Assembly (NCBI GenBank): GCA_947426865.1
Contig: CANEFS010000003.1
Coordinates: 1-64,000 of the forward strand
Length of the DNA stretch: 64,000 bases
Origin: an uncultured Coriobacteriaceae bacterium
GTDB lineage: Bacteria > Actinomycetota > Coriobacteriia > Coriobacteriales > Atopobiaceae
Direction of reading: 5' to 3'
The translations under genes were made by a program, and so were the position numbers. The notes beneath the pieces are model-generated. The model worked only from the letters and a program-made list of their open reading frames with translations, did not search any database and was not told where the DNA came from. Positions 22,108-49,965 of this stretch are shown in pieces; positions within the stretch are counted from its first letter, which is position 1; each line of letters starts with the position of its first letter.

Positions 22108-22121
22108 CGTAGATCCGCCTT

Positions 22122-24050: not shown

Positions 24051-24164
24051 AGAGAGTTCCTCTCTTCCTTTTTTGCTAGCTCGTATTACTCGTTAGCTTT
24101 TTCTCTTTTTTTGTTAGTTTTTCCTCTTGCTAGCTTTTTGCTCTTATCGAGCTCTCTGCCTTAA

Positions 24165-25526: not shown

Positions 25527-25693
25527 CTCCTTTTTGCGAGACTCCTACGCCTGCGTTTGTTTGTTATTGGTTCTTGTCAAACTTTCTGGTTGAATCTTCC
25601 GAGCAGCCCTTTAAGCTGCAACTTTTCCTCAACCTTCTTTAGTATGCTCAAAATCCGCGCAGCTTATACAGTTGTTCGCTTTCTTATGCCTCG

Positions 25694-27094: not shown

Positions 27095-27481
27095 AATGCG
27101 CACTCCTTTTTCCTTCTCAGTTTCTCCTGCAATGCAGCAGGTATATGTGTTTCCGCTCTGGTTCGTACCCAGAAGCACCTCCTGTATTGCAGAAGAATTG
27201 TGAAGATGCGCGCACAAAGATGCATAAAGACGAAGTCAATAAGAAAAAAATTCCAATGAAACCGCAATATTTTAGGGCAGCAAACCGATACCAAACAATC
27301 GATGGCATAGCCTCTCTTTTCCGAGAAAATACCAGAACACAGAGGCTGTGACGATTAATGAAAAAGCGCGCTTGTACTATACTTATAAGCTGCGAAATGC
27401 TCTGTCACCTGCGCCTCTTTCGCCCGGACGTTCTTGTTCGCGTACAGGAAGGTGCAGCGCAAAAGAGCAGACTTTTAAAGT
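27095..27481. other. Divergent intergenic region
   Basis: This 387-bp region separates the minus-strand C45-like gene from the plus-strand membrane gene. It contains TATACT at 27378-27383 as a possible plus-strand -10 box with a poor -35, and one CCGAGAAA copy at 27321. Short frames here have no coding character. No RNA gene is recognised. Confidence 0.35.
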
Positions 27482-28079
27482 ATGGCTAAATCAACCAGTG
27501 CCGTCTTCGTCCCCAAGGCAAAAACGAGAATAAAGACTACCTTATTGCGCCTGGCAATATCGTTTTCCCTTTGTCATGTTGGCGCTTTGTTTGATTGCGG
27601 GCTCGGCGGGCGACTTTGCACTCTCGACTTCCGTTTACAATCCCGCCAATCTGTATGCACAGTTCATCGCGACGCTTGGCATGTTTCCTTTCCCGCTGGC
27701 TTTCTCGGCCGCAGGCGTTTTGTTTTTCTGCGCGTGCGACAGAAAGCGCGTCCCTTCCTTCGTCTTTTATCTCTGCTTTGGAATCGCTCTCAATGCTGCT
27801 GCCCTCTTGGTGATGGGCTCGGAGTTCTGGTCGAACCTGGGCGTGTTCATGCAGCAAGGACAAGAAGTTCCGCTTTATGCGACGGGCCCTGTTTTCTTCG
27901 CTTGCATATCTGCGCTGCCTATTTGTATTTTCGATTTGTGGCTTTTCCGCATCTGTGAAGGCATCGAGAAAAAACGTATCCTTCGTGTCCCTTGGTTTAT
28001 CTACTTTGCCGTCACCGTTTTTCTTATCGGAATCTATCTCTTCTTTAAAAACGGGCTTCCCGAGAAAAACTTGAAGTAG
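27482..28079 (+). pseudogene. Frameshifted multi-pass membrane protein
   Basis: Two overlapping frames together read as one protein. The first frame begins MAKSTSAVFVPKAKTRIKTT at 27482 and runs into a hydrophobic helix (LRLAISFS). The second frame, open from before 27576, continues the helix as MLALCLIAGSAGDF and runs to 28079. A one-base insertion in the T/C run near 27564-27571 would explain the break. The joined product is ~198 residues with about five membrane helices and a C-terminal PEKNLK. GDFALSTSVYNPANLYAQF vaguely resembles the N-terminus of PAP2-type membrane phosphatases, but the PAP2 catalytic motifs are absent. If not broken, translation could start at the ATG 27576. Confidence 0.5.
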
Positions 28080-28189
28080 GTTTGAATTAGGTTAAGATTA
28101 AAAGACGTTCATAACTGACACCGCTATTGACCTCAATAACATTGAAAGCGTTAGCGAAGATATTGCTGGTTGAGCAAAGCTAGCCCAAG

Positions 28190-28966
28190 ATGGAAAAAGC
28201 AAAAACGAAAAAGATAAAGCCAAGTGTAGCTCGCACGCGCAGAGCTTCTTCAAAAGGCGCTGTGGGCAAAGCGACTTCCCAGACGTCGGCCACAGGCAAG
28301 CAAAAGATTGCTGTCTTCGATTTCGACGGCACGCTCGTCAATGGCCAGTCCGGCACGGAGTTTGCTAAGTTTCTCTTTTTCCATCACTATATTGGTCTCT
28401 GGACTGTCAGTCGCATCATTTGGTGGGGTCTTCGCTACACCCTCCATTTGCCTCACGACCAAGATGCGGTGCGCAAGATTTTTATCAAAGGCATCTCCAA
28501 GCGCTATTCAAAAAAGCAAGTGAAAGAAATGATGCGCGAGTTTCATGACGAGCGTCTCGTGAAGCGCTATCGCTCTGCTGCCTTTCGCCAGATCCAGCAA
28601 ATGAAGGACGCGGGTTGCGTTTGTCTTCTCGCGAGTGCAACGTTTGATGGTGTGGCAGAAGTCGCCGCCGAGTACGCCGGTCTGGACGGGTTCGTTTCGA
28701 CGACACTTGCTGAAGATGAGTGCGGCCACTACACCGGCCAGGTGGCGGGAGAGGTTGCCGAAGGCCCCGCAAAATTAAAGGCCATTCAAAAATGGTGCGA
28801 TGAGCATTTTGGGAACGGCAATTGGGCTATTGATTACGCCTTTGGTGATCACCATTCCGACCGAGAAGTGCTTGAGGCAGCTCTCCATCCCGTGGCAGTC
28901 AATCCCGGTTCCGTCCTGAAGTCGAGCGCGAAAAAGCGCGGCTGGCCTATCGTGGAGTGGCGCTAA
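28190..28966 (+). CDS. HAD-IB family phosphatase (SerB-like)
   Basis: The 258-residue protein carries HAD motif I as AVFDFDGTLVNGQS (nucleophile Asp), motif II as CLLASATFDGV, and motif III/IV as the basic region before AIDYAFGDHHSDREVL. This is the HAD-IB subfamily that includes phosphoserine phosphatase and CicA-like enzymes. The N-terminal 40 residues are Lys/Arg/Ser-rich. The substrate is unknown. mutY-like starts 1 bp after the stop, so the pair is co-translated. Confidence 0.85.
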   Translation: MEKAKTKKIKPSVARTRRASSKGAVGKATSQTSATGKQKIAVFDFDGTLVNGQSGTEFAKFLFFHHYIGLWTVSRIIWWGLRYTLHLPHDQDAVRKIFIKGISKRYSKKQVKEMMREFHDERLVKRYRSAAFRQIQQMKDAGCVCLLASATFDGVAEVAAEYAGLDGFVSTTLAEDECGHYTGQVAGEVAEGPAKLKAIQKWCDEHFGNGNWAIDYAFGDHHSDREVLEAALHPVAVNPGSVLKSSAKKRGWPIVEWR

Positions 28967-28967
28967 G

Positions 28968-29933
28968 GTGGCAGACAGTTCTTCCTCGCAACTCTGTCCG
29001 TCGCCTTCCGCAAACATCCTCTCAACCTTTAAAAAGAAAGTTTGGAGGGAAGGGGCGTCTCTTTATCGCGATTTTCCCTGGCGCCGCACGACCGACCCCT
29101 ATCGCGTTTTTCTTTCCGAAGTCATGCTTCAACAAACACAAGTCCAGCGCGTGCAAAAGTATTGGGACACGTGGCTTAATCGCTTTCCTGTCGTTGACGC
29201 TCTCGCAGAAGCACCGTTGTCGGAGGTCCTTTTCGCTTGGCAAGGCATGGGCTACAACCGCCGCGCCATCGCCCTTCAAAAAGCTGTCCAACAAATCATG
29301 CGCGAATACAACGGAACCTTTCCTCAAACCGTTGAGGAGCTCGTGAAGCTCCCCGGCGTGGGGCCTGCAACCGCCGCCGGGCTTCTCGCCTTCGCCTTCA
29401 ACAAGCCGGCCGTCTATCTTGAGACGAACGTGCGCGCCGTTTTCATCCACGAGCTTTTTCCGGGAGCCGTCAACATTCCCGACAAGGAACTCGTCCCTCT
29501 CATCGAGAAAACCTGCCCGGGCTTTGAATCAGCCAATCAACCTTATTCGGAGAAGGACGGACCGCGCGCCTGGTACTACGCGCTTCTTGATTATGGCGCG
29601 TATTTGAAAAAGAACTTCCCCAATCCGTCGCGGCGCTCGAAGATGAACGTGAAGCAGTCAACGTTTGAGGGGTCAAGAAGACAGAAGCGCGCAGAGCTCA
29701 TTCGGCTCCTTTTAGAGGACAAAGAGTTTGCGTCTGTAGAATGTGGACCGATGACGGACAATTCTGCGGAAGGTGGACTGACGACGGATGAGTTGGCGCA
29801 GATGCTTTCGGCGCACGAACAAAAAGAGGGCCGCCCCGCCGTGGAGGCGACCCTCACGCAATCGATTCTTGAAGACTTAGAGGCTGAAGGATTTTGCTCT
29901 TTTCAAAACGAGCGCTGGATCATCGCCTCTTAA
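28968..29933 (+). CDS. HhH-GPD base-excision glycosylase, MutY-like without Fe-S cluster
   Basis: This 321-residue protein is related to MutY/endonuclease III, which remove mispaired or damaged bases. The adenine-glycosylase opening DFPWRRTTDPYRVFLSEVML with LQQTQVQRV is present, and the hairpin-helix-hairpin is LPGVGPATAAGLLAF. The motif that holds the catalytic Asp in MutY (LDGNVKRV) reads YLETNVRAVF here. The four C-terminal cysteines of the [4Fe-4S] cluster are absent; instead the sequence reads YYALLDYGAYLKKNFPNPSR. This pattern is seen in a separate clade of annotated A/G-specific glycosylases. The MutY NUDIX-like C-terminal domain is missing. The start is a GTG 1 bp after the HAD gene. 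The substrate base is uncertain. Confidence 0.82.
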   Translation: MADSSSSQLCPSPSANILSTFKKKVWREGASLYRDFPWRRTTDPYRVFLSEVMLQQTQVQRVQKYWDTWLNRFPVVDALAEAPLSEVLFAWQGMGYNRRAIALQKAVQQIMREYNGTFPQTVEELVKLPGVGPATAAGLLAFAFNKPAVYLETNVRAVFIHELFPGAVNIPDKELVPLIEKTCPGFESANQPYSEKDGPRAWYYALLDYGAYLKKNFPNPSRRSKMNVKQSTFEGSRRQKRAELIRLLLEDKEFASVECGPMTDNSAEGGLTTDELAQMLSAHEQKEGRPAVEATLTQSILEDLEAEGFCSFQNERWIIAS

Positions 29934-29951
29934 TTTCTTCTCCGCTCACGT

Positions 29952-31514
29952 TTAGTGATCCGACATATCGAAGCGGTTCAGCATAAGCATCGAGCGGTTG
30001 TAAAGCGCGCCCCCAAGCAGCTTTTGCATGCCGTCGTTTGCAATCTTGCAAAGAGCGGTGTTTACCTCTTCCAGGGTTTTCTCGGAAACAGATTTAGAAT
30101 CATCAATCTTGGCAATGTGATTCAGACCGGTAGCAATCATGCTTTCAGAAAACGTGTTGATGTCATCCACGTTCTTGTAGAACTCGGGATCGGCGAGGCC
30201 TGCAACCATGCGCACTTGCCAATAGAACGTGTGCGTGTCGATATCCAGCGGCGTTTTCATGTACAAGGGAAGTTTCGAGACGCTCGTAAACAGGGGAATA
30301 AATGTCGAGAAAGGCATGCTCGACATCGCAATCCACATGATACCGCGCGTTGCGCGTGGCACGTTGGGGCGCACTTGCAAAAGCGCGCAGAACGAGGTGC
30401 GGTTGATGCCGATCGGACGGAACAAGCGGCGCGTCTCGTTGGAACCTTGTGAGCCGTACGGGTCGTACTTGGTGTTTTGATAGTGCGAACTCATCACGGT
30501 GCGCACGTCTTCGACGGTGATGCGTGCTTCAGGAACGCGGCACCAGGGAAGGTCGGGGCTTTGCGCGCTGAATTCAGGCTCTGCCGAGAAGTAATCGGAC
30601 GACGGATTCAAAATGGACATGCCGTACCAGACGCGCGGGGTGTTGTAGACGCGGTCGCGCCACGTGTTGGACCCGAACGTCTTGCGCGGATTGAAGACGG
30701 CAGGAATGCCCTTGAACATCGCAGGCTTTTTTGCAGCTTTCCCGCGCCCACCCGCTTTCATTTTTACACTGGGCGCCACATCGCCTTTTGCATCTTCTGC
30801 ACCAATGGCGGGCACAAGATGATTCTTCTTCATCCAGTCAACAAGGTCGGCCGAGCACATAAAGTTCTTCTCGGCACCGTAGGCATCCTTTAAATCGAAG
30901 TAGTCAAGCGAGAGCTGGTTGGCGATAAGGGCGTAGGTGTCGTCGGGGAGGCGGCGGGCAATCCAATGGTGGCCACCGAGCGTTTCAATCCACCAGATTT
31001 CGTCTTCGTCGGCAAAGCCAACGCCGTTCGACTCATACGTGCCGTACTGCTCCAGCAATTTGCCCATGCGCTGAACGCCCTCGCGCGCGCTTTTGATGTA
31101 GGGCAAAAGGAGGTTCACGTAATCTTCCTCGCCAATGCCGCCGGGAACTGCCTTCACCGAGCCGTGCGCAGGAACGTATTCGACGAGCGGATCTGCGCCC
31201 AAGACCGCGGCGTTTGTGGTAATTGTTTCCGTTGCGGTCATGGCAACGCCTGCGTCGTTAATGCCGGCTTCACCCCAGATGCCTTCGGAGCGCTTCTCTG
31301 CACGCGGCGAATAGGTGCAGCGAATGCCTTTGCTGGGGAGCTTGACCTCGCAGTGTGAGATGACGCTCTTGTAAACCTTTGGAAGCTTCGAGGGCTCGAG
31401 GACCTCGATAGCAACAGGATCAAAATGCCCATCCTCGGCGTCGTCGGTTCTGGCCATCAACGTTGAACCGTCGTAGCTCGCATTTTTTCCAATGAGAATC
31501 GTTGTGCAACCCAT
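29952..31514 (-). CDS. C69 family dipeptidase
   Basis: This is an Ntn-hydrolase dipeptidase of the PepD/C69 family. The N-terminus MGCTTILIGKNASYDGSTLM is the family hallmark, with the nucleophile Cys3 exposed after processing. EGIWGEAGINDAGVAMTATE, then DPLVEYVP and EIWWIETLGGHHWIARR, are also typical. The start ATG at 31514 is preceded by AGAGGAGAAAAC and places the Cys correctly; an upstream in-frame ATG at 31673 would bury it. Length is 520 residues, with a Lys/Gly/Ala-rich insert near residue 265. It is divergent from araA. Together with pepC and the C45-like enzyme it points to peptide use. Confidence 0.93.
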   Translation of the reverse strand: MGCTTILIGKNASYDGSTLMARTDDAEDGHFDPVAIEVLEPSKLPKVYKSVISHCEVKLPSKGIRCTYSPRAEKRSEGIWGEAGINDAGVAMTATETITTNAAVLGADPLVEYVPAHGSVKAVPGGIGEEDYVNLLLPYIKSAREGVQRMGKLLEQYGTYESNGVGFADEDEIWWIETLGGHHWIARRLPDDTYALIANQLSLDYFDLKDAYGAEKNFMCSADLVDWMKKNHLVPAIGAEDAKGDVAPSVKMKAGGRGKAAKKPAMFKGIPAVFNPRKTFGSNTWRDRVYNTPRVWYGMSILNPSSDYFSAEPEFSAQSPDLPWCRVPEARITVEDVRTVMSSHYQNTKYDPYGSQGSNETRRLFRPIGINRTSFCALLQVRPNVPRATRGIMWIAMSSMPFSTFIPLFTSVSKLPLYMKTPLDIDTHTFYWQVRMVAGLADPEFYKNVDDINTFSESMIATGLNHIAKIDDSKSVSEKTLEEVNTALCKIANDGMQKLLGGALYNRSMLMLNRFDMSDH

Positions 31515-32003
31515 GTTTTCTCCTCTGCACGTTTTAAACGTGTCGTTTTGCGCCGCTTGGTTTTGCAGCGCTCGTGCCCTTGTGAAGTCCCCGCTTTTGC
31601 GCGCGAGTTTTTCGCTTCGCACGTTTGCTGGCTTCACAAGGAGCGTTTTTCTTGCCCCTTCTTTATACTCCATTTTGCCAATCTATAACTTTCTAAAGGC
31701 GCGAATTATGTGAGCGGCGCCTCAGATTGTGCTTCCCCGTGCCGAGAAACCCTTGCGAATTAGCCTCCATTTGCGTTGGCGAGAAAAGCTGGCCGAGCGC
31801 ACCTTTCTTGCCGTGCCGGGGAAGACGGGCGGCGAGCGCTCATTCCGCCCTGCCAAAAAGCCCTCCTCGGCCTTCCCGCGAGTTCTTCTCGACCATTCGC
31901 CAGAACTTCAAAAATGAGCCTTTGTCTCGGCTCGCATTTCTTCTATCATAGGACAGGTTATTCGTTCGAATCACCATGGTTGTACAGTTTTAAGGAGGCA
32001 GGT
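31515..32003. promoter_or_regulatory. C69-araA divergent control region
   Basis: This 489-bp region serves two divergent genes. Toward araA, TTGTCT (31922-31927) and TATCAT (31944-31949) with 16-bp spacing form a plausible promoter. The 12-bp perfect palindrome ATTCGTTCGAAT (31960-31971) lies just downstream of the -10 and is a candidate repressor operator. AAGGAGG (31992-31998) is the araA ribosome site and fixes the araA start. The rest (31674-31920) has no recognisable gene. Confidence 0.45.
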
Positions 32004-35347: not shown

Positions 35348-36046
35348 ATGTTAGAGAAATTACGCGAAGAAGTTTATAAAGCAAACATTGCGCTTCCCAC
35401 CCACGGGCTCGTGGTGTTCACGTGGGGAAACGCTTCCGGCTTCGACCCCGACTCCGACCTCTTTGTTATCAAGCCTTCCGGCGTGGCCTACGAGGAGCTC
35501 ACTCCTTCCAATCTCGTGGTATGTGACTTGGACGGAAATGTTGTTGAAGGGGATCTCAACCCCTCGTCCGATACTCCCACCCACGCCGTTCTCTATAAGG
35601 CTTGGGGCGACCGGATTCAAGGGGTGGTGCACACGCACTCATCTTGGGCGACCTCTTGGGCGCAAGCGGGAAAATCGATTCCGTGTTACGGCACCACGCA
35701 AGCCGATTATTTCTATGGCGACATTCCCTGCATGCGCTCGCTTTCCCAAACCGAGATTGAAGGCGCCTATGAGGCAGAGACAGGCAACGTTATCGTTGAT
35801 GGTTTTGCCGAGAAAAACCTCAACCCTCTCTCTATTCCAGGTTGCCTCATCAGAAACCATGGCGTCTTTAGTTGGGGAACCAACTCCAATGAAGCCGCCT
35901 ATCATGCCGTCGTTATGGAAGAGTGCGCAAAGATGGCGCTGCATACAGAACAGATCAATCCGGATGTAAAGCCTGCGCCTCAGTTTCTTATCGACAAACA
36001 CTACGAGCGCAAGCATGGTAAAAACGCCTACTACGGCCAGAAATAA
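35348..36046 (+). CDS. araD: L-ribulose-5-phosphate 4-epimerase
   Basis: This class II aldolase-like zinc enzyme converts L-ribulose-5-phosphate to D-xylulose-5-phosphate. THGLVVFTWGNASG, VVHTHSSWATSWAQ (zinc His pair) and CLIRNHGVFSWG (third His) are visible. The length of 232 residues matches AraD (231 in E. coli). The start follows GGAGGTATTCG. It completes an araA-araB-araD set that feeds the pentose phosphate or phosphoketolase pathway. Confidence 0.92.
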   Translation: MLEKLREEVYKANIALPTHGLVVFTWGNASGFDPDSDLFVIKPSGVAYEELTPSNLVVCDLDGNVVEGDLNPSSDTPTHAVLYKAWGDRIQGVVHTHSSWATSWAQAGKSIPCYGTTQADYFYGDIPCMRSLSQTEIEGAYEAETGNVIVDGFAEKNLNPLSIPGCLIRNHGVFSWGTNSNEAAYHAVVMEECAKMALHTEQINPDVKPAPQFLIDKHYERKHGKNAYYGQK

Positions 36047-36173: not shown

Positions 36174-37944
36174 ATGAGCTGCAAAGAGTCTTCTCGAACA
36201 GTCCCTTCATCGAAAACGCAACGTTCAGCACGTACTTTTAAAGAGACCTTAAAGCTTTCGCTCGTCTTTTTTATTAGCTTTTGCTTCGTTCTCCAAACAA
36301 ACATTGCCAAACCTTTGGCAGAAACAATCTAGGACATCTCTGAGAGCCTCGCCGGTGTTGTCGAGGAAGATTTTCAGGATGAAATTTCCCATCAACTTTC
36401 ACAAACGCTCGCAAGTTCTGCCGAAGAGCTTCCGCAAGAAACAACGCCCCAGACCAATGCAGCGACGATTTCTTATAATCTGGACGACGAAAACACTCAC
36501 CATCGAGGCAGCCGGAGCTACAGCAGATGCTCCTGCTACTCTTCCTCTTGACGACACCCCAACGTGGATTCTCAATTTCACGGTTGCATCGGGAATACAA
36601 GCTGGCAATCTTCCCGAAATAAAAACGGTTCAAATTAAAGGACATATTCAAATTGCAGAAACCGCACAAAACGGTTTCGCCCCTTCCAATGGCAGCGGAT
36701 GGGAAAGCCTTAAACATTTTGTTGTCGTAAAAGATGGCGACAGTAGTCTCACCTTTGCACAAAACGCAAAGTGCAAAACCATGTTTGGCCTCCTCCCTGA
36801 TGACGGGAGTGCAGTCGTCGCGCCTTTAGAAACGGTTGAGGGAAACATTTCCTTTAACAACGTCAGAGATTCCTCGGGCCTGTTTGCAAATTGCGTGAAC
36901 CTTCAAGAGCTGCCCGACTCTTTCGATGTTCCTAATTCGGAAGACTGCGACTACATGTTCCAACATTGCGAAAAACTCCAAGCGCTTCCTTCATTCACGG
37001 CCGCTGGAGCCCAGGGCGCGTCCTGTGCGTTTGATGGATGTCAAGCGCTCAAAGAACTTCCCTCCTTAGCTGCAAACGGCCTTGGTCAAGCAGTAGGAAT
37101 GTTTCGAAAATGTGTGGCTTTAGAATCCTTGCCAGAGGACTTTAATCCAAAAGACCTAATCTCAACAGCTATGATGTTTATGGGTTGCTCGTCGTTGAAA
37201 ACCATTACGCTTTCCAAATTGGAAAACCTGCAATATGTTTATCTGATGTTTTGTGGTTGTTCCAAATTAACGGACATCTCGACCCTTTCTTCTTGGAAGG
37301 TAGACGTAGTAAACCTTGATGGCATGGGGTTTATCGGCATGTTTGCTGGCTGCACTTCTTTGCCAGACGTATCTCCTCTCGCTGCTTGGGAGATTGATGA
37401 GACGAACAATATGGAAGTTGACTTTGGTGAGGGCCTTGTCCTTACAGGGCTTACAGGCATGTGTGGGACGCTTAATAAAGAAGTCGCGAACATGTTTATC
37501 GAAAGAGAGGACCAGAAGTACCAAAGCGATCTTCCTGCCCCCTCCCTGATTACTAAAATGAGTTTTGGTGAAGGTTGGGGAAAAATGAACAGCAAAGCGC
37601 TCCTGTCTATGAACGTTTGGCAACCCACAGAAGAAGCACTCAATCTTCAAGCAGCGGGAGAGAGTCTTCCATGGTATTGCGAAGATAAACCTGAACAAGG
37701 TCCCTACGAAACAACAAACGTACTTTTTAGTGCTTTTGATCAGGATGGCGGTTGGACTCAAGGTACCTGGGTAGCTCAAGCGAACCCAGAACCTGACGTG
37801 AATCCTTCTGGAAACGATGGCGCAGGAGCTCTGCCAGCTACAGGAGATCTTCTCGGCTTCGGCTCTTTCTTCGTGGCAGGCATTCTTCTGCTTGGCGCTC
37901 GCCTCACCATAGCGAAGGGATGCAAGAAGGGCTGGGAAATCTAG
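36174..37944 (+). pseudogene. Broken BspA/DUF285-type LPxTG surface protein
   Basis: The gene reads in pieces. The first frame gives a signal peptide (KLSLVFFISFCFVLQTNIA then KPLAETI), a TAG stop at 36330-36332, and then continues as DISESLAGVVEEDF in the same frame. Near 36490-36493, in an AAAA run, the frame shifts by one base to a long frame beginning TLTIEAAG and running to 37944. That part holds leucine-rich DUF285/BspA-type repeats (MF-x-x-C-x-x-L-x-x-LP pattern, about eight copies) and ends with LPATGDLLGFGSFFV plus a basic tail, a sortase signal. An intact version would be a ~590-residue wall-anchored protein. Two separate lesions suggest a pseudogene or sequencing error. No sortase is nearby. 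Confidence 0.72.
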
Positions 37945-38187
37945 CGCAGAAGGGCAATCTCAGAAAGAACCGTTCAGCGAGAAGCTTTTCTCGATAAGAC
38001 GTGCGCGGCAAAAAACGGGGATTGAAACGCTATCATAGAGGGAGCACCAAACGGTACAAAACGTTGCTCTCGCACCTCTATCGTACTCGCAACTTTCAAA
38101 CACATTGCCGATAGGGGCGCCGCTTTAGAACGAGTTTAAGACTCGCTTTTAGGGAGAGCGCCTTGCGGCATATCAGAAAGGATTGCC
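37945..38187. other. Region upstream of galK
   Basis: This 243-bp gap follows the broken surface-protein gene. CGAGT (38131-38135) and ACTCG (38141-38145) followed by CTTTT form a small hairpin. AAAGGATT before 38188 is the galK ribosome site. A promoter is expected here, and TATCAT near 38034 could be a -10 box, but no good -35 is seen. Confidence 0.35.
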
Positions 38188-39483
38188 ATGCAAGCTTTTT
38201 CCAAGGTTCAAGAAGAACTCGTCAACCCAAGCCAAGGCACGCTAGATGCGATTGAGGCCATCTACGGTCCGCGTGAGGACAAGCAGAAAGTGCTCGCGAG
38301 CTATCAGGAAGTTTTGGATGGCCTGGTGAAGGAGTTTCCTGAGGTGAAAGAGCACCCGGTTGGTCTCTATACCGCTGCGGGACGTACTGAGATTGGCGGA
38401 AATCACACCGACCATCAACTGGGATGCGTTTTGGCCGCCTCGATTAATCTGGAGTCGATTGCTGCAGCCTCTCCTAATAACCTCGACAAGATTCGCGTTT
38501 ACTCCGAGGGCTACGGCCGCCTAGAGGTAAATCTCTCCGACTTGAATCCGCAAGATGATGAGAAGGAAACGACACCAGCGCTGCTTCGCGGCTTCGCTGC
38601 TGTGCTGAAGGAGGCGGGCTACGATGTGGGCGGCTTCGATGCCTATATCAAGTCGAACGTGCTTTCCGGCTCGGGTCTTTCTTCGTCAGCTTCGTTTGAG
38701 TCGCTGATTGGCTCTATCTATAACGACCTGTATTGCGGAGGCGCTCTTGATCCTGAGACGATTGCGAAGGACGGTCAAAAAGTCGAGAATGTCTTCTTTG
38801 GAAAGCCTTGTGGCTTGATGGATCAGATGGCGTGCTCTGTTGGTTCTGCGGTCGCTATCGACTTCAAAGACAAGGACCATCCCGTTGTGCGTAAGGTGGA
38901 TATCGACTTCGACGAGGCCGGATACCACCTCGTTATTTGCGACACGCTTTCAAGCCACGGCGATCTCTCCTCTGCCTACGCCTCCATCCCTGAGGAGATG
39001 GGCGAGATTGCTTCTTACTTTGACCAAAAGACCCTTCGCGGCATTACGGAAGAGCAGCTGCTTGAAAACGCCAATGCCCTGCGCGTGCAATTTTCAGATC
39101 GCGCGTTTTTGCGCGCCCTTCATTTCGTTCGCGACAACGAGCGTGCGCAAAAAGAAGCTGAATTTCTTGAGAAGGGCGATGTCGATGGCTTCTTAAAAAC
39201 GGTGCAGGAGTCGGGCAATTCCTCCATTAAGTACTTGCAAAACATTGCGACCTTCGACGATCCCACCGACCAGAAAGTGGCCGCAAGCCTTGCGATTGCT
39301 CAGATGATTTTGGGCGCCGAAGGGGCGGTGCGTGTCCACGGTGGCGGCTTTGCTGGAACGATTCAGGCTTTCGTGCCGCACAAGATGCTCTCCACGTTTG
39401 TTGAGAAGATGGACGCCGCACACGGCGGAGAGGTCTGCCACGTTCTCTCTATTCGTCCCGTGGGAACGGCGACCTTCATTTAG
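38188..39483 (+). CDS. galK: Galactokinase
   Basis: This GHMP kinase phosphorylates galactose at C1, the first step of the Leloir pathway. GRTEIGGNHTDHQLG (about residues 65-79) is a variant of the galactokinase signature, and SGSGLSSSASFESLIG is the ATP loop. VHGGGFAGTIQAFVP is the third GHMP motif. At 431 residues it belongs to the longer galactokinase subgroup seen in Clostridia and Actinomycetota. It opens a gal operon that is interrupted by an NRPS-like gene 68 bp downstream. Confidence 0.93.
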   Translation: MQAFSKVQEELVNPSQGTLDAIEAIYGPREDKQKVLASYQEVLDGLVKEFPEVKEHPVGLYTAAGRTEIGGNHTDHQLGCVLAASINLESIAAASPNNLDKIRVYSEGYGRLEVNLSDLNPQDDEKETTPALLRGFAAVLKEAGYDVGGFDAYIKSNVLSGSGLSSSASFESLIGSIYNDLYCGGALDPETIAKDGQKVENVFFGKPCGLMDQMACSVGSAVAIDFKDKDHPVVRKVDIDFDEAGYHLVICDTLSSHGDLSSAYASIPEEMGEIASYFDQKTLRGITEEQLLENANALRVQFSDRAFLRALHFVRDNERAQKEAEFLEKGDVDGFLKTVQESGNSSIKYLQNIATFDDPTDQKVAASLAIAQMILGAEGAVRVHGGGFAGTIQAFVPHKMLSTFVEKMDAAHGGEVCHVLSIRPVGTATFI

Positions 39484-39551
39484 GTCTGGTTTTTATTGAA
39501 GTTATGCGCCACATTGAAGATACGAGAGCTTTAAGAAATTAGAGATTAAAG

Positions 39552-42500
39552 ATGGCCGAGAAAACCGTTCCCTCTGTTTTTGCGGAGGTAGTCTCTGCAA
39601 ATCCCGATGCTCTTGCCGTTATTTCGGCTGAAGAGAAAATTACGTATGGTGAACTTGATGCGCGCGCGAATCGTATCGCTCTCAATTTGATGAAGCATGG
39701 CGTCATACCGGGCGATGGAGTGGCCTTTTCTATGAAGCGGTGCGTGAATGCGATAGCTTTGATGCTAGGTATTTTAAAGGTGGGCGCCATCATGATTCCC
39801 ATTGATGCGTCGTATCCCTTTTTGCGCATCGATTTCATTTTGGACGACAGCTTCGCCAAACTCTACGTTGTCGATGATTTTTTCGACGAATTGTTGGCAC
39901 CTATTGATGAGAATGCGGAAGACGAAGGACTTTCCAACGCAATTGCAATGGGTGCGATACCACACACTGAGGAAGGCTGCTATTGCCTCTATACCTCAGG
40001 ATCCACCGGGCAGCCCAAAGGTGTTCTTGTTCCTCAGAGAGGCATTCTGAACCTCGTTCTTAACACATCCGTTTACGAAGGTTTTGACGAGATTTTCCGC
40101 ATTGGTTTCTCTACAACTTTTACGTTTGATGTGGCGATGCAAGAAATTTTCACAACACTTTTAAATGGACGAACTGGCGTGATTTTGCCAGAGCGCAGAA
40201 ATACTCCTGTCGACGAAATTGCGCATCAGATAGTGAGCGACAAGGTGGATATGCTCTTCTCGACGCCAACATACTTTTCAGCGCTTACAAATAAGGAGAG
40301 CAACGCCCTCACACTTTTGAATCAATTGAAGTTGGTTTGCTTGGCAGGTGAGAAATTCTTCCTTAACGAAACGGTTCAGCATTTGCGCAAAGACGGTGCT
40401 ATTAGAACGCGCTTCGACAATCAATACGGTCCTGTTGAACTCTCCGTTATTTCGGCGACACGTCACATGAAAGACGATGATTTTACCTCTATTGGCTCGG
40501 CTATTCCCAATATGAAGGCCTACATTTTGAGCGAGGATGGAAATGTTTGTGCGCCGGGCGTGAAAGGTGAGCTGGTCTTTGCCGGCAAAGGGGTGGCGCT
40601 CGGTTACCTGAATCATCCGGAGCTTACAGAAACGCGCTTTGTCGAGAATCCCGCAGAGCCTGGAATTATCTACAAAACGGGCGACGTTGCTTATTTCGGT
40701 GAGGATGGCGAGATTCACTACGTTGGCCGCAACGATTTTCAGGTAAAGCTTCGTGGCCAGCGCATCGAGCTTGAAGAGATTGAAAGCGTCCTTTTGAAAA
40801 ATGAAGGCGTTAAAAATGCTGCTGTGGTAGTGCAAGAATTCGGGGGCAAGCAAATACTTTGCGCCTTTTATGAGACGCGAGAAGCACCTGCTTCAGAGGA
40901 GGATTTTCGCGCGAGAATCCACAGGCATCTTAAAGCCGCCCTTCCTATTTATATGGTGCCCGATCGCTTTTACCGCCTCGAGGCGCTGCCTACCCTGACA
41001 AGTGGAAAGGTTGATCGTAATACTCTTGCAACCATGAAGATGGAAGAAGCCGCGGAAGAAAAAAATCGCACGTTTGAGCCGCCCGCGAATGAACTTGAGC
41101 AAACGATTGTGCAGCTCATGAAAGGCGTGCTGGAGCAAGAGAGTCTCGGTGTTGATGAGGACTTCTTCGATTTAGGCGCCGATAGCTTAAACATCATCGA
41201 GTTCGTCGCCGAGCTCAAGGGTGAAGGAATTCTTGTAGGCATCCAAGATGTTTTCGATGCCCGCAACGCCCGAGCCTTGGGCGAAGTTATTGAACAGGCG
41301 GATCGATCCTCCCAAAAGAAGAAGCATGTGCCTCACCCTTCTTCTCAGAAGGTCATCCCCGAACAGGCCTCAGATTTCTCTTCGTCCGAGAAAGATAAAC
41401 GAAGTGCGAGCGATACCCCTCTCTTACGTACGGCGACCGACGCTTCCGAGGATACAGAATTCGCGGCCGTACTTCACGAGTTTCTTACAGAAAATAAAGC
41501 CTTGCTTGAAAACGAAGACGCTCCTTTGCCCGGCAATGAAAATGCTGCATTGTCCAAGTGTGCCTGTGCGGTCCCATCGGATGAGAGCAAGCAAAAAAAA
41601 TCTCCCGTCCTTTTCTTAACAGGCGCGACAGGTTTTCTCGGCGCCCATGTATTGCATGAACTGATTGAGCGCACTTCCGCGACGATTTATTGTTTGGTGC
41701 GCGCCACCTCTCACGATGAGGCGACCGAGCGAGTTCGCGGCCGCTACAGTTTCTATTTCAATTCGCCCATCACAATCGAGCGCGCCAAGGATTTTGAACA
41801 ATCAGAGAATAGAGGGACCCGCCCCCACGTTCATGTCCTCCACGGAAACTTGGAAAAAAAGAATTTTGGCCTGGACGAGAAAACGGTTAAAGCGCTTCAG
41901 GAAAGAATCGATTGCATTATTAATTGCTCTGCGAACGTGAGTTATTACGGAAATCTCGCATCGTTCGAAAAAATTAATACGGAACCCATCACGAATTTTG
42001 TTCGCCTCGCACGCGGTTCCTCCAAGCACATTCACCTGCTACACATCTCAACAGTGAGCGTGGCTGGCAGTGGTTTCTCGGAAGAGAAGAAAGAGCAGAG
42101 AGAATCTGGGGCTGACGAAGAAAAGAAAGGGACGCAAGAGATTGCCGCTCCGATTTTTACCGAGGAGCATTTTTTTGTCAATCAAGCTTTCCGCAGCGCT
42201 TATGCGCGCTCAAAGTTTGAGGCCGAGAAAATCCTTCTTCAAGAAATGATCGGAGGATTCGATGCTACTATTGTTCGCTTGGGTAATTTGCTACATCGAA
42301 CAAGCGATGCCCAGTTCCAACCAAACATTAACAACAACTCCTTCATGCGTCACGTACAAGCCCTGGCTGCTGTCGGAATTTTCCCTACGTCCTTCAAAAA
42401 TTTGCAAATTGAGATGAGTCCAATTGACAAAGTTGCTGAAGCCGTCACCTCTCTGGGCGTTGTGCACGGCCTAGCTACCGAAAAAAATAAGGCGCGCGTT

Positions 42501-42848
42501 TTAAATTTAACGAACCCTGATACTATTTCCGGCTCCCTTTTGATAGAAGCGCTTCGCAAGCACGGTTTTAAGATGGAAGAGAAATCAGAGGCAGAGTTTA
42601 GAGTAAACCTCATGCAGTTGCAGGAAACACCTCGTCTGCGCGGGCAGGCTGCTTATCTTTTGGGAGGGATTTCGAAGGAGGGGGCCTACAGTCTGGACCC
42701 CGACAATCCCACGTCTTCTCACGCGACAACGCAATACATGAAAAAGCAAGGCTTTACCTGGAATCTTGCAAGTGAAAAATACGTTGACGATGTCATTAAT
42801 AATTTAGTTGAAATAGGATTTTTAGACCCTCACGAAAAAGGTCGTTAA
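39552..42848 (+). CDS. NRPS-like adenylation-carrier-thioester-reductase protein
   Basis: The 1098-residue protein has A-T-R architecture. The adenylation domain (1-~500) shows A3 YTSGSTGQPKGVLVPQRG, A4/A5 TFDVAMQEIF and NQYGPVE, A7 YKTGD, A8 GRNDFQVKLRGQRIELEEIE and A10 LTSGKVDRN (Lys486). The carrier domain has LGADSLN with Ser545 for phosphopantetheine. A Ser/Glu-rich linker (~580-685) leads to an NAD(P)H reductase domain with GATGFLGAH at 691 and YARSK (Tyr884/Lys888). There is no condensation domain. Lys2 and carboxylic-acid reductases share this layout: they activate an acid, tether it and release an aldehyde. It lies between galK and galT in the same direction (gaps 68 and 36 bp). The product is unknown, and no phosphopantetheinyl transferase is in the window. 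Confidence 0.9.
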   Translation: MAEKTVPSVFAEVVSANPDALAVISAEEKITYGELDARANRIALNLMKHGVIPGDGVAFSMKRCVNAIALMLGILKVGAIMIPIDASYPFLRIDFILDDSFAKLYVVDDFFDELLAPIDENAEDEGLSNAIAMGAIPHTEEGCYCLYTSGSTGQPKGVLVPQRGILNLVLNTSVYEGFDEIFRIGFSTTFTFDVAMQEIFTTLLNGRTGVILPERRNTPVDEIAHQIVSDKVDMLFSTPTYFSALTNKESNALTLLNQLKLVCLAGEKFFLNETVQHLRKDGAIRTRFDNQYGPVELSVISATRHMKDDDFTSIGSAIPNMKAYILSEDGNVCAPGVKGELVFAGKGVALGYLNHPELTETRFVENPAEPGIIYKTGDVAYFGEDGEIHYVGRNDFQVKLRGQRIELEEIESVLLKNEGVKNAAVVVQEFGGKQILCAFYETREAPASEEDFRARIHRHLKAALPIYMVPDRFYRLEALPTLTSGKVDRNTLATMKMEEAAEEKNRTFEPPANELEQTIVQLMKGVLEQESLGVDEDFFDLGADSLNIIEFVAELKGEGILVGIQDVFDARNARALGEVIEQADRSSQKKKHVPHPSSQKVIPEQASDFSSSEKDKRSASDTPLLRTATDASEDTEFAAVLHEFLTENKALLENEDAPLPGNENAALSKCACAVPSDESKQKKSPVLFLTGATGFLGAHVLHELIERTSATIYCLVRATSHDEATERVRGRYSFYFNSPITIERAKDFEQSENRGTRPHVHVLHGNLEKKNFGLDEKTVKALQERIDCIINCSANVSYYGNLASFEKINTEPITNFVRLARGSSKHIHLLHISTVSVAGSGFSEEKKEQRESGADEEKKGTQEIAAPIFTEEHFFVNQAFRSAYARSKFEAEKILLQEMIGGFDATIVRLGNLLHRTSDAQFQPNINNNSFMRHVQALAAVGIFPTSFKNLQIEMSPIDKVAEAVTSLGVVHGLATEKNKARVLNLTNPDTISGSLLIEALRKHGFKMEEKSEAEFRVNLMQLQETPRLRGQAAYLLGGISKEGAYSLDPDNPTSSHATTQYMKKQGFTWNLASEKYVDDVINNLVEIGFLDPHEKGR

Positions 42849-42884
42849 AACTTAACCCGCAACAAACTAAGAAGGGGAGACGAA

Positions 42885-44450
42885 ATGGGCGAGGAGAAAG
42901 AAATGACAGAGACTCAAAACGCGTCTACGGAAACGTTTGCGCACAGGCAGACTGCACCCGTTGCACCGCCTTTGCTTTCTGCGCAAGAGGCGCTCGTTGC
43001 ACTCGTGAACCATGCTGTTGCCGCCTCTCTCATCGACGAGCAAGACGTCATCTGGGCAACGAATCAAATCGCGCACCTTATCGGTTTTGAGGAAGCGCCT
43101 GCGCTCGACGAGGCCTCTCTCGAAAAGATTGAGCTTCCCGAGGACGGCTACTCCACGTTGCCCGAAGGCTACACGCTCCAAGGGATTCTCGACATCTTGA
43201 CGAAGGCTGCGGTGGAAAATGGCGTGATTGAACAGGGGAGTGTCTCGGCCGACCTTCTCGACACAAAAATCACGAGCGTCTTCACGCTTCCGCCTTCTAA
43301 AATTTTCGAGAAGTTCTGTAAGCTCTATCTGCAAAGCCCCAGCGATGCAACTGATTGGTTCTTCCAGTTTTGCAAAGACATCAACTACGTGCGCCAGGAC
43401 CGCCTGAATCAGAATCTCTCGTGGCAGACGGAGACACCTTACGGGCCGCTCGACATCACCATCAATCTTTCGAAGCCCGAGAAGGACCCGAAGGCGATTG
43501 CTGCCGCACTGAAAAGCGATAAGATTGAGTTTCCCAAGTGCATGCTTTGCCTGGAAAACGAAGGCTATGCTGGGCGCATGGACTATCCCGCGCGGGACAA
43601 TTTGCGCATCATTCCGCTGGAGCTTCTCGGCGAGAAGTGGGGCTTTCAATACTCGCCCTACGGCTACTTTAACGAGCACTGCATTTTGCTCTGCACCGAG
43701 CACCGTCCGATGAAAATTAATTTCGACGCGTTTCGTCGTCTGTTAGAAATTGTGACGCGATTCCCCACGTACTTTGTGGGCTCCAACGCCGATCTTCCTG
43801 TCGTGGGAGGATCGATTCTCACGCACGATCATTATCAGGGCGGAAAATACATCTTCCCCATGGATCGCGCTGAGGCAAAAGATGACCCGCGCGCAACCTT
43901 TTTCTTCGAAGGCTTTCCCGATATCAAGGCCGAATACATCAAGTGGCCTATGTCGACGATTCGCCTCTCCGGGTTGGATAAAGAGCGTGTCGCAGAGCTT
44001 GCTGCCGCTATTTTGAACGCGTGGCGTGGCTACTCGGATGAGGAGGCGGGTATTGTTGCCTCTTCCGAGAACCCCGAGACTCACGAGATGGAGCCGCACA
44101 ATACCATAACCTCCATCGCGCGAAACGAAGACGGTACGTACATCATGAATCTCGTGCTTCGCTGCAACATCACGTCCGACGAGTTCCCGCTGGGCGTCTT
44201 CCATCCCCACCCCGAATATCATCACGTGAAAAAAGAGAACATCGGCCTGATTGAGGTCATGGGTTTGGCCATTTTGCCGCCGCGTCTTAAAGAAGAAGTC
44301 GAGAAAGGCTCTCTCACACGCGATGAAATTGGAGAGATCTTCAGTCATGTTCTAGAAGACGCGGGCGTCTATAAAGACACGCCAGAAGGAAACGACCAAT
44401 TCTTCCGTTTTGTTGAAGCTGTCAACGAGAAATTGAAGGAAGAAGAGTAG
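42885..44450 (+). CDS. galT: Class II UDP-glucose--hexose-1-phosphate uridylyltransferase
   Basis: The enzyme swaps UMP between UDP-glucose and galactose-1-phosphate. This is the class II GalT family, not the E. coli type. Seen are NEGYAGRMDYPARDNLRIIP, VVGGSILTHDHYQGG and GVFHPHPEYHHVKKENIGLI. Length is 521 residues. Two starts are possible: ATG 42885 after AAGGGGAG, or ATG 42903 after GAGGAGAAAG. It follows the A-T-R gene by 36 bp and precedes galM. No galE is in the window, so epimerisation of UDP-galactose must be encoded elsewhere. Confidence 0.94.
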   Translation: MGEEKEMTETQNASTETFAHRQTAPVAPPLLSAQEALVALVNHAVAASLIDEQDVIWATNQIAHLIGFEEAPALDEASLEKIELPEDGYSTLPEGYTLQGILDILTKAAVENGVIEQGSVSADLLDTKITSVFTLPPSKIFEKFCKLYLQSPSDATDWFFQFCKDINYVRQDRLNQNLSWQTETPYGPLDITINLSKPEKDPKAIAAALKSDKIEFPKCMLCLENEGYAGRMDYPARDNLRIIPLELLGEKWGFQYSPYGYFNEHCILLCTEHRPMKINFDAFRRLLEIVTRFPTYFVGSNADLPVVGGSILTHDHYQGGKYIFPMDRAEAKDDPRATFFFEGFPDIKAEYIKWPMSTIRLSGLDKERVAELAAAILNAWRGYSDEEAGIVASSENPETHEMEPHNTITSIARNEDGTYIMNLVLRCNITSDEFPLGVFHPHPEYHHVKKENIGLIEVMGLAILPPRLKEEVEKGSLTRDEIGEIFSHVLEDAGVYKDTPEGNDQFFRFVEAVNEKLKEEE

Positions 44451-44495
44451 TCAAAGCCGCAAGACAACGTATTAATGAAAAAGGAAAGGACGCCA

Positions 44496-45611
44496 ATGCA
44501 AGTCACAAAAAAATTATTTGGAAAAATTGAGAGTGGACCTGAGCTGGGAAAAGAAGTTGAAATCTACACGCTCTCAAACGACAACGGCATGGAGGCCAAT
44601 ATCCTCACCTACGGTGCCACCATCCAGTCGCTCTCGCTGAACGGAAAAGACGTTGCCCTTGGCTACGACAACCTCAAAGGCTATCTTGAGAACGAGGGAT
44701 GTCTGGGTGCGACGATTGGGCGCGTAGCAAACCGCATCAAGGATGGAAAATTCACGCTGAACGGCAAGGACTATCAGCTGGCCCTCAACAATGGAGGCAA
44801 TACGTTGCACGGTGGAAACGTTGGCTTCCACGAGCGCGTTTTCACGCCAACGGTTGACTCGAAGGGGCTGCATCTCACCTACATCAGCCCGGCTGGCGAG
44901 GAGGGCTTTCCCGGCGAGGTCGTCTTTGTCGTCACCTATTGTTTGGACGACGACAACACGCTCCACATGGACTACAACGCCACCACAACAGCCGACACGC
45001 CCTTCCAAGTCACGAATCACTCCTACTTCAACTTAGATCTGCCGGACTTTGCCGCGTCACAAACAGCGGCTGCCGAGAAAACCACGGCCGAGGAGCTAAG
45101 CATCCTCAAGCACGAGCTTCAAATTGAGGCGGATGCCTACGATAAAAACGATGAGACGAGTGTGGCAAAACCTTCAGAGCGCACGGCTTTAACAGACGAT
45201 GCTATCTTTGATTTTAGAAGCCCAAAGAAGATTGGAATCGACATCAGAAAAGAGTCGCAGCAACTTGGGTGGGCAAAAGGCTACGACCATGCTTTCGTGT
45301 TGCGCAAGACAGGTGGGACTGTGACAGATGCCACTCACAAGAAGAATGAAGAGGCGGCAACGCTTACGAACGGAAAGCTTACGCTCAAAATCTTTACCAC
45401 AATGGGATACCTCCACGTCTACACAGGAAACTATCTTGATATGGAAGGCAAACAAGGCATCTATTACGGAGAGAACGCGGGCGTTGCTTTAGAGGCCGAG
45501 CACGAGCCCAACGCAATTAACGCAGAAGACGTGGCAACGCGTGAGAAGGCCATCATCACGCCCTCAAAGCCCCTCAACGAAACGATTTCCTTCCAGCTCT
45601 TAGAAAACTAA
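44496..45611 (+). CDS. galM: Aldose 1-epimerase (mutarotase)
   Basis: This enzyme interconverts alpha and beta galactose so that GalK can use it. NEGCLGATIGRVANRIKDGKF, LHGGNVGFHERVF (His) and TNHSYFNLD (second His) are typical, and the C-terminal region has GVALEAEHEPNAIN (catalytic Glu). The start ATG 44496 follows AAGGAAAGGA; an ATG seven codons upstream lacks a ribosome site. Length is 371 residues. It is the last gene of the gal operon and ends before a clear terminator. Confidence 0.93.
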   Translation: MQVTKKLFGKIESGPELGKEVEIYTLSNDNGMEANILTYGATIQSLSLNGKDVALGYDNLKGYLENEGCLGATIGRVANRIKDGKFTLNGKDYQLALNNGGNTLHGGNVGFHERVFTPTVDSKGLHLTYISPAGEEGFPGEVVFVVTYCLDDDNTLHMDYNATTTADTPFQVTNHSYFNLDLPDFAASQTAAAEKTTAEELSILKHELQIEADAYDKNDETSVAKPSERTALTDDAIFDFRSPKKIGIDIRKESQQLGWAKGYDHAFVLRKTGGTVTDATHKKNEEAATLTNGKLTLKIFTTMGYLHVYTGNYLDMEGKQGIYYGENAGVALEAEHEPNAINAEDVATREKAIITPSKPLNETISFQLLEN

Positions 45612-45698
45612 ACGCTCTGCAATCGGGCGCTCTGCAAGCGGGCGGTCCTTTTAAAGAGTACTCTTCTAGTCGCTTAAACAACCTCCGATTTTTAAAAA

Positions 45699-45728
45699 AA
45701 AGACCTGGGAAATTCCAGGTCTTTTTTA
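45699..45728. terminator. Bidirectional terminator between galM and the symporter
   Basis: AAGACCTGG (45701-45709) and CCAGGTCTT (45716-45724) form a 9-bp stem with a 6-nt loop. It is flanked by an A-run on the left and a T-run on the right, so it can end transcripts from both directions. It separates the convergent galM and GPH symporter genes. Confidence 0.9.
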
Positions 45729-45753
45729 TTCTCAGCGTTTCAGCTTAGAGACT

Positions 45754-47313
45754 TTACGATTTCTTCTTTTTCTTCGCGGGTTTCTCGGCCTTGGAAGCTT
45801 TCTCATTAAGAGCAATATTGGCTTCTAAGTGCTCACCCCAGGTCTCTTCAAGCTGTGCCACGATATCGGCATGCATTTTCTCTGTCAGTTTAATCTTCAG
45901 AGCAAAGACAACCATGGCAAGAACAAGAATAACTGCGGGGACAAGAAGCATAAGGATCTTAAAGAGGGACCCATCGCTCGCCGTTACGGTTTCTGCGGTG
46001 GCATCGTTAGTCATGCCGCAGGCGATAACGATAATACCTACCAAACCGGTCGAGACGGCTCCTCCGAACTTATCGGCCAAAGGGCGCAAGGAAAGCGCGA
46101 CAGACTCGTCGCGGTGACCAAGCTTCAACTGACCGTACTCGATGGAGTCGGTAATAATCATGAGGGCAATCAAGAAGACCATTGGCTGAGGCGCAACGAA
46201 AAGAATTCCTCCGATAAGAGCCAGGACAAAGCCAAGCGTCGCTCCGCTTCCCAGAATGTCGGGAACAGGAATTCCTAGTACACACAAGCCTGCAATCATC
46301 ACGATAACCGACGCAAAGAAAAGCGGTTTTCTCGTAAAGATGCGAGACAGTATCGGGAAGAGTGCGACCGACCCCAGGCTGATGAAGATGTTAAGAAGCA
46401 TCAACAATGAGTAGCCGTATTCGTTTCCCAAAATGTACGTGTAGTAATAAAGCAGCAAAGCATTCACAAGAAGGAAACCCGTGCAATAAATCAGATACGA
46501 GATAAAAATCCAAAGCAGCTGATCGTTTTTGAACAGCACCTTGAAAACGCCGCCCAGTTTCGTGTCTTGGGCGTTCTCGCGGATGGTGTCAGCCACCTCA
46601 CGCGTTCCTAAGCCAACACAAAGAGCAGAGATGGCATTGATAATACAAACGAGAGCCGCGAAGACGAACCAACCGGTTGCATCTCCGTTTTCGGCCGTTT
46701 GAGTTACCGAGAAGAACAAAACGATGGGCATAACAACCGCACCTGTCAGGTTCTGGCCAACGCCCGAACCAAAACGGGCAAGCGTTGCGTTTTTCTCGCG
46801 TTCACGACTGTCGAGGGACAACGCCGGAAGCATCGACCAGAAAGCGACGTCGTTGAAAGAGAATGAGACGTCCATCGTGATGTAGAGTGCCGCAAAAATG
46901 ACGAGGTAGAGCTCGGGATTCTCGTGGCTCAAATCCCCCAGCGTCGAGAAGAGCGCCAGAAGCGCAAGAGAGGCAACCGAGCCGCCCACAACAATCCAAG
47001 GTCGAAAATGTCCCCAACGCGTTTTCGTACGGTCAATGATGTTGCCGATGAACGGGTCGATGAAAAGTTCAACAATACGAAGCCCCATGATGATCGTGGT
47101 GGCTGCACCAATCCAAACGACATCATCGCTGCCACCCGAACGATTGAAGAGGATCTTTGTGATGAACATGATGAGGTAGGTGGACATTGCGGCGTAAAAA
47201 ACGTCGTGCCCAAAAGCCCCAAACATGTAAGATGCGCGAGAAACAATTTTATTAACAGGCTTCTCGAGTGGCTGTTGATTGGGCCGCGCAGCAGAAGTAT
47301 TTGTCTCTGCCAT
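45754..47313 (-). CDS. GPH-family sugar:cation symporter
   Basis: The 519-residue protein has about 12 membrane helices and GPH signatures: VELFIDPFIGNIIDRTKTRWGHFRPWIV near the loop between helices 2 and 3, and SLRPLADKFGGAVSTGLVG later. This family moves melibiose, lactose, pentosides and related sugars with H+ or Na+. Position next to gal and ara genes suggests galactoside, galactose or arabinose uptake, but the substrate cannot be fixed. The cytoplasmic C-terminus is Lys-rich. It is convergent with galM and lies 41 bp after the ferredoxin gene. Confidence 0.87.
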   Translation of the reverse strand: MAETNTSAARPNQQPLEKPVNKIVSRASYMFGAFGHDVFYAAMSTYLIMFITKILFNRSGGSDDVVWIGAATTIIMGLRIVELFIDPFIGNIIDRTKTRWGHFRPWIVVGGSVASLALLALFSTLGDLSHENPELYLVIFAALYITMDVSFSFNDVAFWSMLPALSLDSREREKNATLARFGSGVGQNLTGAVVMPIVLFFSVTQTAENGDATGWFVFAALVCIINAISALCVGLGTREVADTIRENAQDTKLGGVFKVLFKNDQLLWIFISYLIYCTGFLLVNALLLYYYTYILGNEYGYSLLMLLNIFISLGSVALFPILSRIFTRKPLFFASVIVMIAGLCVLGIPVPDILGSGATLGFVLALIGGILFVAPQPMVFLIALMIITDSIEYGQLKLGHRDESVALSLRPLADKFGGAVSTGLVGIIVIACGMTNDATAETVTASDGSLFKILMLLVPAVILVLAMVVFALKIKLTEKMHADIVAQLEETWGEHLEANIALNEKASKAEKPAKKKKKS

Positions 47314-47354
47314 ACCGATCCTTTCTGTTTAGATTTTTATAAGGCTTGCGCAGA

Positions 47355-47543
47355 TTAGTCTTCCGCAATCTCGGTGATTGCGCCGGTGGGGCAAGCTTCC
47401 ATGCATTGTCCGCAGGCAATGCAGTTCTCCGCGTTTACGACCTCGGCCGCGCTGTCGCCCAGCTCAAGAACGTCGCAAGGACAAGTGTCCACGCATACTC
47501 CGCAACTCACACATTCATCTGAAACAATAACTGGATGTGCCAT
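47355..47543 (-). CDS. 2[4Fe-4S] ferredoxin
   Basis: This 62-residue electron carrier has two complete cluster motifs, CVSCGVCVDTCPCD and CIACGQCMEACPTG. The ATG follows AAGGAG. It is typical of anaerobes, where such ferredoxins serve pyruvate:ferredoxin oxidoreductase and hydrogenases. It sits upstream of the symporter gene on the same strand; a functional link is not obvious. Confidence 0.95.
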   Translation of the reverse strand: MAHPVIVSDECVSCGVCVDTCPCDVLELGDSAAEVVNAENCIACGQCMEACPTGAITEIAED

Positions 47544-47780
47544 TTTTTCTCCTTCTTTAGAGAGGTTTTTACTACTCTTGCGAGTTTAGCCATCTTGCGC
47601 TCGTTTGCAAGGCTTTTCCAGCGATTTTTTGGTAAGGGGCAATGCTGGATTATCTTCGCGTCGCATGAGGTTTATTGATTGCGCAAAAGGGCTATCTCGT
47701 TTGTGCTGTATTAGACAGAAAGGGGCGAGGTAGGGACCGCGGACGATAAGCTTGGGACAACAACGAGAAAAAAGAGAGTG

Positions 47781-47809
47781 TTGACAAAATACTGAGAAGA
47801 GTATATGTT
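47781..47809 (+). promoter_or_regulatory. Promoter of the dnaK operon
   Basis: TTGACA (47781-47786) is a perfect -35 box. TATGTT (47804-47809) follows after 17 bp as -10. It lies just upstream of the HAIR-like repeat. Confidence 0.7.
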
Positions 47810-47825
47810 ACACAGGCTTAAAAAA

Positions 47826-47846
47826 TCTGAGTCGTTCTCACTTAAA
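47826..47846 (+). promoter_or_regulatory. HAIR-like HspR operator
   Basis: TCTGAGT-7 bp-ACTTAAA matches the actinobacterial HAIR consensus (CTTGAGT-N7-ACTCAAG) at 5 of 7 bases in each arm with the correct spacer. It lies between a -10 box and a second TATAAT and upstream of dnaK. An HspR gene is encoded in the same cluster, so autoregulation is likely. Confidence 0.6.
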
Positions 47847-48021
47847 TTTTATAAATTGTTGTGTATAATACTTTACGCAATGGGAATAAACGAAAAGCGA
47901 CGAAAGTTTAAGCCTGCATACGAAACACGAAATACAAAAACGCAACAGAAACAAAAAGCACAAAACACGAACACGAAGCACAAGACACGAAAAACGAAAC
48001 CTACTTATACAAGAGCTATAA

Positions 48022-49965
<1,944 letters not shown>

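Follow-up and report, generated by a model that had tools for sequence, protein, structure and literature searches.

Stand-alone proteins that join an adenylation (A), a carrier (T) and a thioester reductase (R) domain without a condensation (C) domain are known as minimal nonribosomal peptide synthetases (NRPSs) of the ATRed type, and release their substrate as an amino-aldehyde (PMC7586950). ATRed of Xenorhabdus indica is a single A-T-R protein of this kind with reductive release, its substrate being phenylalanine and its aldehyde dimerizing to a pyrazine (PMC7586950). AsaC of Aspergillus is likewise a stand-alone A-T-R enzyme, but it is fungal and makes pyrazinones from leucine and isoleucine within a dedicated cluster (PMC10512218). 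The C-minus NRPS for livipeptin in Streptomyces lividans, also one of the Actinomycetota, has the same A-T-R layout, but works with an L/F-transferase partner and has a predicted arginine substrate (PMC10548850). The layout is also that of Lys2 (aminoadipate reductase) and of the carboxylic acid reductases. We found no stand-alone A-T-R enzyme releasing prolinal or prolinol in open-licence papers. The locus described here lies in a 64,000-nucleotide stretch (the window) of an uncultured Coriobacteriaceae bacterium of the family Atopobiaceae and encodes an A-T-R protein that, judged by its domains, is a stand-alone minimal NRPS of this already known kind, with a proline-like pocket code where the livipeptin NRPS has a predicted arginine substrate, and with a galactose operon around it, which ATRed of X. 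indica lacks.

The gene order, all on the forward strand, is galK, the A-T-R gene, galT and galM (Table 1). Gaps of 68 bp to galK and 36 bp to galT, as had been given in the preliminary description of this DNA, are confirmed by the ORF coordinates, and the flanking genes by protein-model matches. The host genome (1.04 Mb in 29 contigs, 94% complete) is the sole member of its genus in our genome set. Since dnaA at 15852 places the window near the replication origin, and its surroundings on the 67 kb contig are those of an ordinary chromosome, it is unlikely that the A-T-R gene owes its place to a contaminant contig or a misjoin.

Table 1. Features of the A-T-R gene and its surroundings in the window
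Feature	Coordinates	Strand	Evidence
galK, galactokinase	38188..39483	+	NCBIfam galactokinase models, best E 8.6e-47
Weak terminator-like hairpin and T tract over galK stop codon	39471..39486	+	-7.0 kcal/mol, z -1.6
A-T-R minimal NRPS gene (predicted)	39552..42848	+	ATG start, 1098 aa
Adenylation domain, residues 10-486	39579..41009	+	Pfam AMP-binding 3.6e-59 (residues 10-353) and AMP-binding_C (409-486); pocket code DVQFCAQVIK (proline-like)
Carrier (T) domain, residues 518-579, Ser545 in ACP-like LGADSL	41103..41288	+	Pfam PP-binding 4.7e-10 (residues 518-579)
NAD(P)H thioester reductase domain, residues 686-1098	41607..42845	+	Pfam NAD_binding_4 (PF07993) 3.2e-44 (residues 689-965); catalytic residues
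galT, UDP-glucose--hexose-1-phosphate uridylyltransferase	42885..44450	+	E 2.8e-183
galM, galactose-1-epimerase	44475..45611	+	E 2.4e-76
GPH-family sugar:cation symporter, convergent with gal genes	45754..47313	-	E 1.3e-126

The Pfam matches and the invariant residues uphold the domain reading made earlier, namely an A domain, a carrier with Ser545, an NAD(P)H reductase and no C domain. The core A motifs are present by inspection, the reductase loop GATGFLG occupies residues 691-697, and Ser545, T834, Y884 and K888 are invariant in an alignment of 31 sequences. The A domain passes the model of the amino-acid-activating subfamily (TIGR01733, 335.5 bits against a cut-off of 317.4), and the R domain passes PF07993 and scores 172.1 bits (E 2e-50) with the thioester-reductase model TIGR01746, below its cut-off of 213.35. 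From these domains and catalytic residues, an enzyme releasing a reduced amino acid is predicted, in line with the preliminary description. The comparison made there with Lys2 and the carboxylic acid reductases stands for the A-T-R layout but not for family membership, since TIGR03443 (L-aminoadipate-semialdehyde dehydrogenase) gives 201.7 bits against a cut-off of 1030.1, and NF041592 (carboxylic acid reductase) 120 bits against 1300. An AlphaFold model built from the 31 aligned sequences has a mean pLDDT of 79 (a single-sequence model, at pLDDT 33, was unusable); in structure it most closely matches adenylation and initiation modules of NRPSs (LgrA, CytC1, GrsA). Because the protein has changed at 11 of 125 conserved columns, inside the range of 1-17 seen in its relatives, the gene does not appear to be decaying; with no stops, and with conserved residues retained as in intact relatives, we rejected a decaying pseudogene.

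The pocket code of the A domain (Table 1) agrees at about 7 of 10 positions with the proline Stachelhaus code DVQxxAHVVK. The A4 region, FDVAMQEIFTTLLNG, is similar to that of GrsB1 and TycB1, FDVCYQEIFSTLLSG, the motif FDVxxQEIFxTLLxG being common to all three. GrsB1 and TycB1 activate proline. Pocket-region identity to GrsB1 is 27%, which is not above that to Val or Gly domains, so that L-proline, the most likely substrate, is predicted with no more than moderate strength. Among the Pro codes in the literature are DVQFVSQVMK (PMC9113097) as well as DVQFIAHVXK and DVQYIAHVTK (PMC2866473), and three or four of the ten positions, one of which (278) changes between F and L with the alignment used, are unlike the known Pro codes. 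Such differences would suit the same enzyme and mechanism acting on a hydrophobic amino acid or on a cyclic imino acid other than proline, which we regard as quite possible though short of an even chance, the agreement of D235, V236, Q239, A301, V330 and K517 with Pro-type domains speaking against it. With L-proline as substrate, the product would most likely be L-prolinal or prolinol. To our knowledge, prolinal, a secondary amine, cannot give a pyrazine in the manner of ATRed.

The carrier motif LGADSL is ACP-like and not the usual NRPS GGxS; among the 75 relatives with a readable motif, 74 had GGxS, one had GAVS and none had ADS. Two carriers were detected in the host genome, the fatty-acid ACP (AADSL) and that of the A-T-R protein (GADSL). 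The preliminary description had pointed to a phosphopantetheinyl transferase gene elsewhere in the genome as something to look for, and AcpS (179 aa) was the only one found. The Sfp-type N-terminal domain was not found in the host assembly; of the 140 family genomes 16 have it, each from a genus with NRPSs. Because the host genome is 94% complete, a transferase of the Sfp type could have gone unseen. The ACP-like motif fits arming of the carrier by AcpS. It may also be that AcpS does not serve this carrier; the carrier might then never be modified and the protein be idle, the gene being a recent passenger not yet lost. That no Sfp-type transferase was found, where 16 other genomes of the family have one, favors such an idle protein, as does a weak ribosome site, but the lack of stops, the retention of conserved residues as well as in relatives and the similarity of the motif to that of the AcpS-served ACP all count against it, and we think it rather unlikely. 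A more elaborate conjecture strikes us as improbable, namely that in this genome of roughly 1 Mb, lacking an Sfp-type transferase, the carrier of a proline-specific, single-module reductase shifted to an ACP-like motif for arming by AcpS, and that galactose supply governs the output of the enzyme.

The A-T-R protein could also be one half of a split system, requiring a condensation domain or a tRNA-dependent transferase in trans and yielding a peptide aldehyde. Livipeptin relies on a transferase partner (PMC10548850), and the nearest free-standing A-T-R protein, the clostridial L073, has in its vicinity an A-T-C protein encoded on its own as well as an Sfp-type transferase. However, in the 94% complete host genome we detected neither a C domain nor an L/F-transferase (PF03588), and the ACP was the sole carrier besides that of the A-T-R protein; moreover, this protein begins at its A domain, with no N-terminal docking extension. 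A split system is a reading that we hold to be highly improbable, and membership in the livipeptin type of C-minus NRPS was rejected for want of the PF03588 partner in this assembly.

As for the origin of the gene, the closest sequence kin are AusA-like aldehyde-releasing NRPS termination modules of gut Clostridia (L096, L065 and L073), at 31-34% identity over the whole module. Unlike the host protein, L096 and L065 are portions of longer NRPS proteins; L073 stands on its own, yet with a C-domain protein and a transferase of the Sfp type close by. In trees, the A-T-R protein joins these three (SH-aLRT 89-92, a weak grouping) on a long branch of 1.5-2.4, and AU tests rejected its placement with either of two NRPS module sets from Atopobiaceae (p 9e-6 and 2.6e-5). 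Clostridial kinship is also suggested by the carrier residues FFDLGxDSLxxIEFV...QxVFD, which the host and clostridial proteins have in common. Searches of 140 genomes of the family, 397 of the order and 396 of the phylum gave no full-length relative with more than about 34% identity; in the family genomes, the best other matches were about 31-33% identical and mostly modules of multimodular NRPSs. A plasmid search gave matches of 28-37% only, none over 80% of the query. GC3 of the gene is 0.507 versus 0.616-0.646 for galK, galT and galM, which is inside the spread of the window's genes. No flanking repeats resembling transposon ends or a target-site duplication were seen, but this is no obstacle, since gain of a single gene needs no mobile-element ends. 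The best reading is thus a single-gene acquisition into the galK-galT junction, the donor probably being a clostridial NRPS termination module.

Whether the galactose context has a meaning can be judged from the relatives. We compared 49 gal loci from Atopobiaceae genomes other than the host; galK and galT adjoin directly, in either order, in 46 of them (22 genera), and the remaining three have no galK inside the flank examined. The A-T-R gene is in the junction of none of the 49, all of other genera. The preliminary description had held that its absence from between galK and galT in close relatives would speak against a tie to galactose use, and among these other genera the galK, A-T-R gene, galT order is indeed not conserved. 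Its view that the neighborhood excludes simple horizontal acquisition does not hold either, given a junction lacking the gene in all relatives examined and nearest kin that are clostridial. Near 80 related loci, found by a contig scan with an R-domain alignment (a single-protein scan, whose patterns fell in variable linkers, gave 0), there was no galK, galT, galM or symporter (0/80). A purposeful role, with an amino-aldehyde or amino-alcohol made under galactose either for signaling or for attachment to a sugar, would agree with the strand common to the gal genes, the small gaps and the intact reading frame. Against it stand the junctions without the gene in all other Atopobiaceae genera examined, the 80 related loci and the lack of a partner gene in the operon, so that such a role appears unlikely. 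Unusual as the position of the gene is, the evidence speaks more for a passenger that was inserted than for a metabolic tie to galactose, and of the earlier suggestions hitch-hiking on the gal promoter is preferred to a product made on purpose when galactose is used.

Strand and spacing make it plausible that the A-T-R gene is co-transcribed with the gal genes, and the link with galactose is probably co-transcription only. The statement that no terminator intervenes is unproven: a weak hairpin and T tract overlap the end of galK (Table 1), but terminator-like sites in the region are at chance level (18 observed, 15.0 expected by chance, sd 4.2). The ribosome site of the A-T-R gene, at -2.9 kcal/mol, is weaker than those of galK (-4.7) and galT (-7.6) and, together with the hairpin, argues for low expression. 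Just upstream of galK, at 38130-38155, another hairpin is followed by a T run (z -0.8, not stronger than shuffled) and is a possible terminator or attenuator. No Rfam elements were found in 37000-48100.

Put together, an ATRed-type enzyme with proline as its likely substrate, a carrier armed by AcpS, gain as a single gene and co-transcription form the explanation that we prefer, although taken as a whole we would believe and doubt it about equally. The sequences themselves show the domains, the catalytic residues, the gene content of the host assembly and the lack of the gene in relatives, whereas substrate, arming of the carrier, product, co-transcription and donor are inferred. The A domain would use ATP to activate one amino acid, most likely L-proline. 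The carrier, with a phosphopantetheine arm that AcpS probably supplies, would hold this amino acid in thioester linkage. The R domain would then use NAD(P)H to release the amino-aldehyde, or the amino-alcohol upon a second reduction; galactose would not be a substrate. If active, the enzyme would constitute a one-gene natural-product pathway in an Atopobiaceae genome of roughly 1 Mb, and it would make it possible to test whether AcpS by itself can serve an NRPS carrier. Chance insertion most likely explains the gal context, which would nonetheless put the gene under a sugar-controlled promoter.

Some further observations concern the loci compared and the rest of the window. The clostridial split NRPS L073 (63-10037) reads, in row, A-T-C, SIR2_2-like, separate A-T-R, AMP ligase and Sfp-type transferase, and the SIR2-like gene is thus situated between the two NRPS halves. 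Four R-terminated NRPSs from the archaeon Methanobrevibacter (L098, L103, L107 and L141) have proline-like pocket codes of the DVQ type. In the window, arabinose genes lie upstream of the gal operon (araA at 31776, a kinase at 33693 and araD at 35348), and between the two stands a gene at 36304-37944 for a DUF285/BspA-like surface protein with a C-terminal LPATG-type anchor. Further upstream, at 20719-31673, two amino-acid permeases are clustered with several peptidase-type genes (C1-like, C69, phospholipase B-like), which suggests a peptide-using lifestyle.
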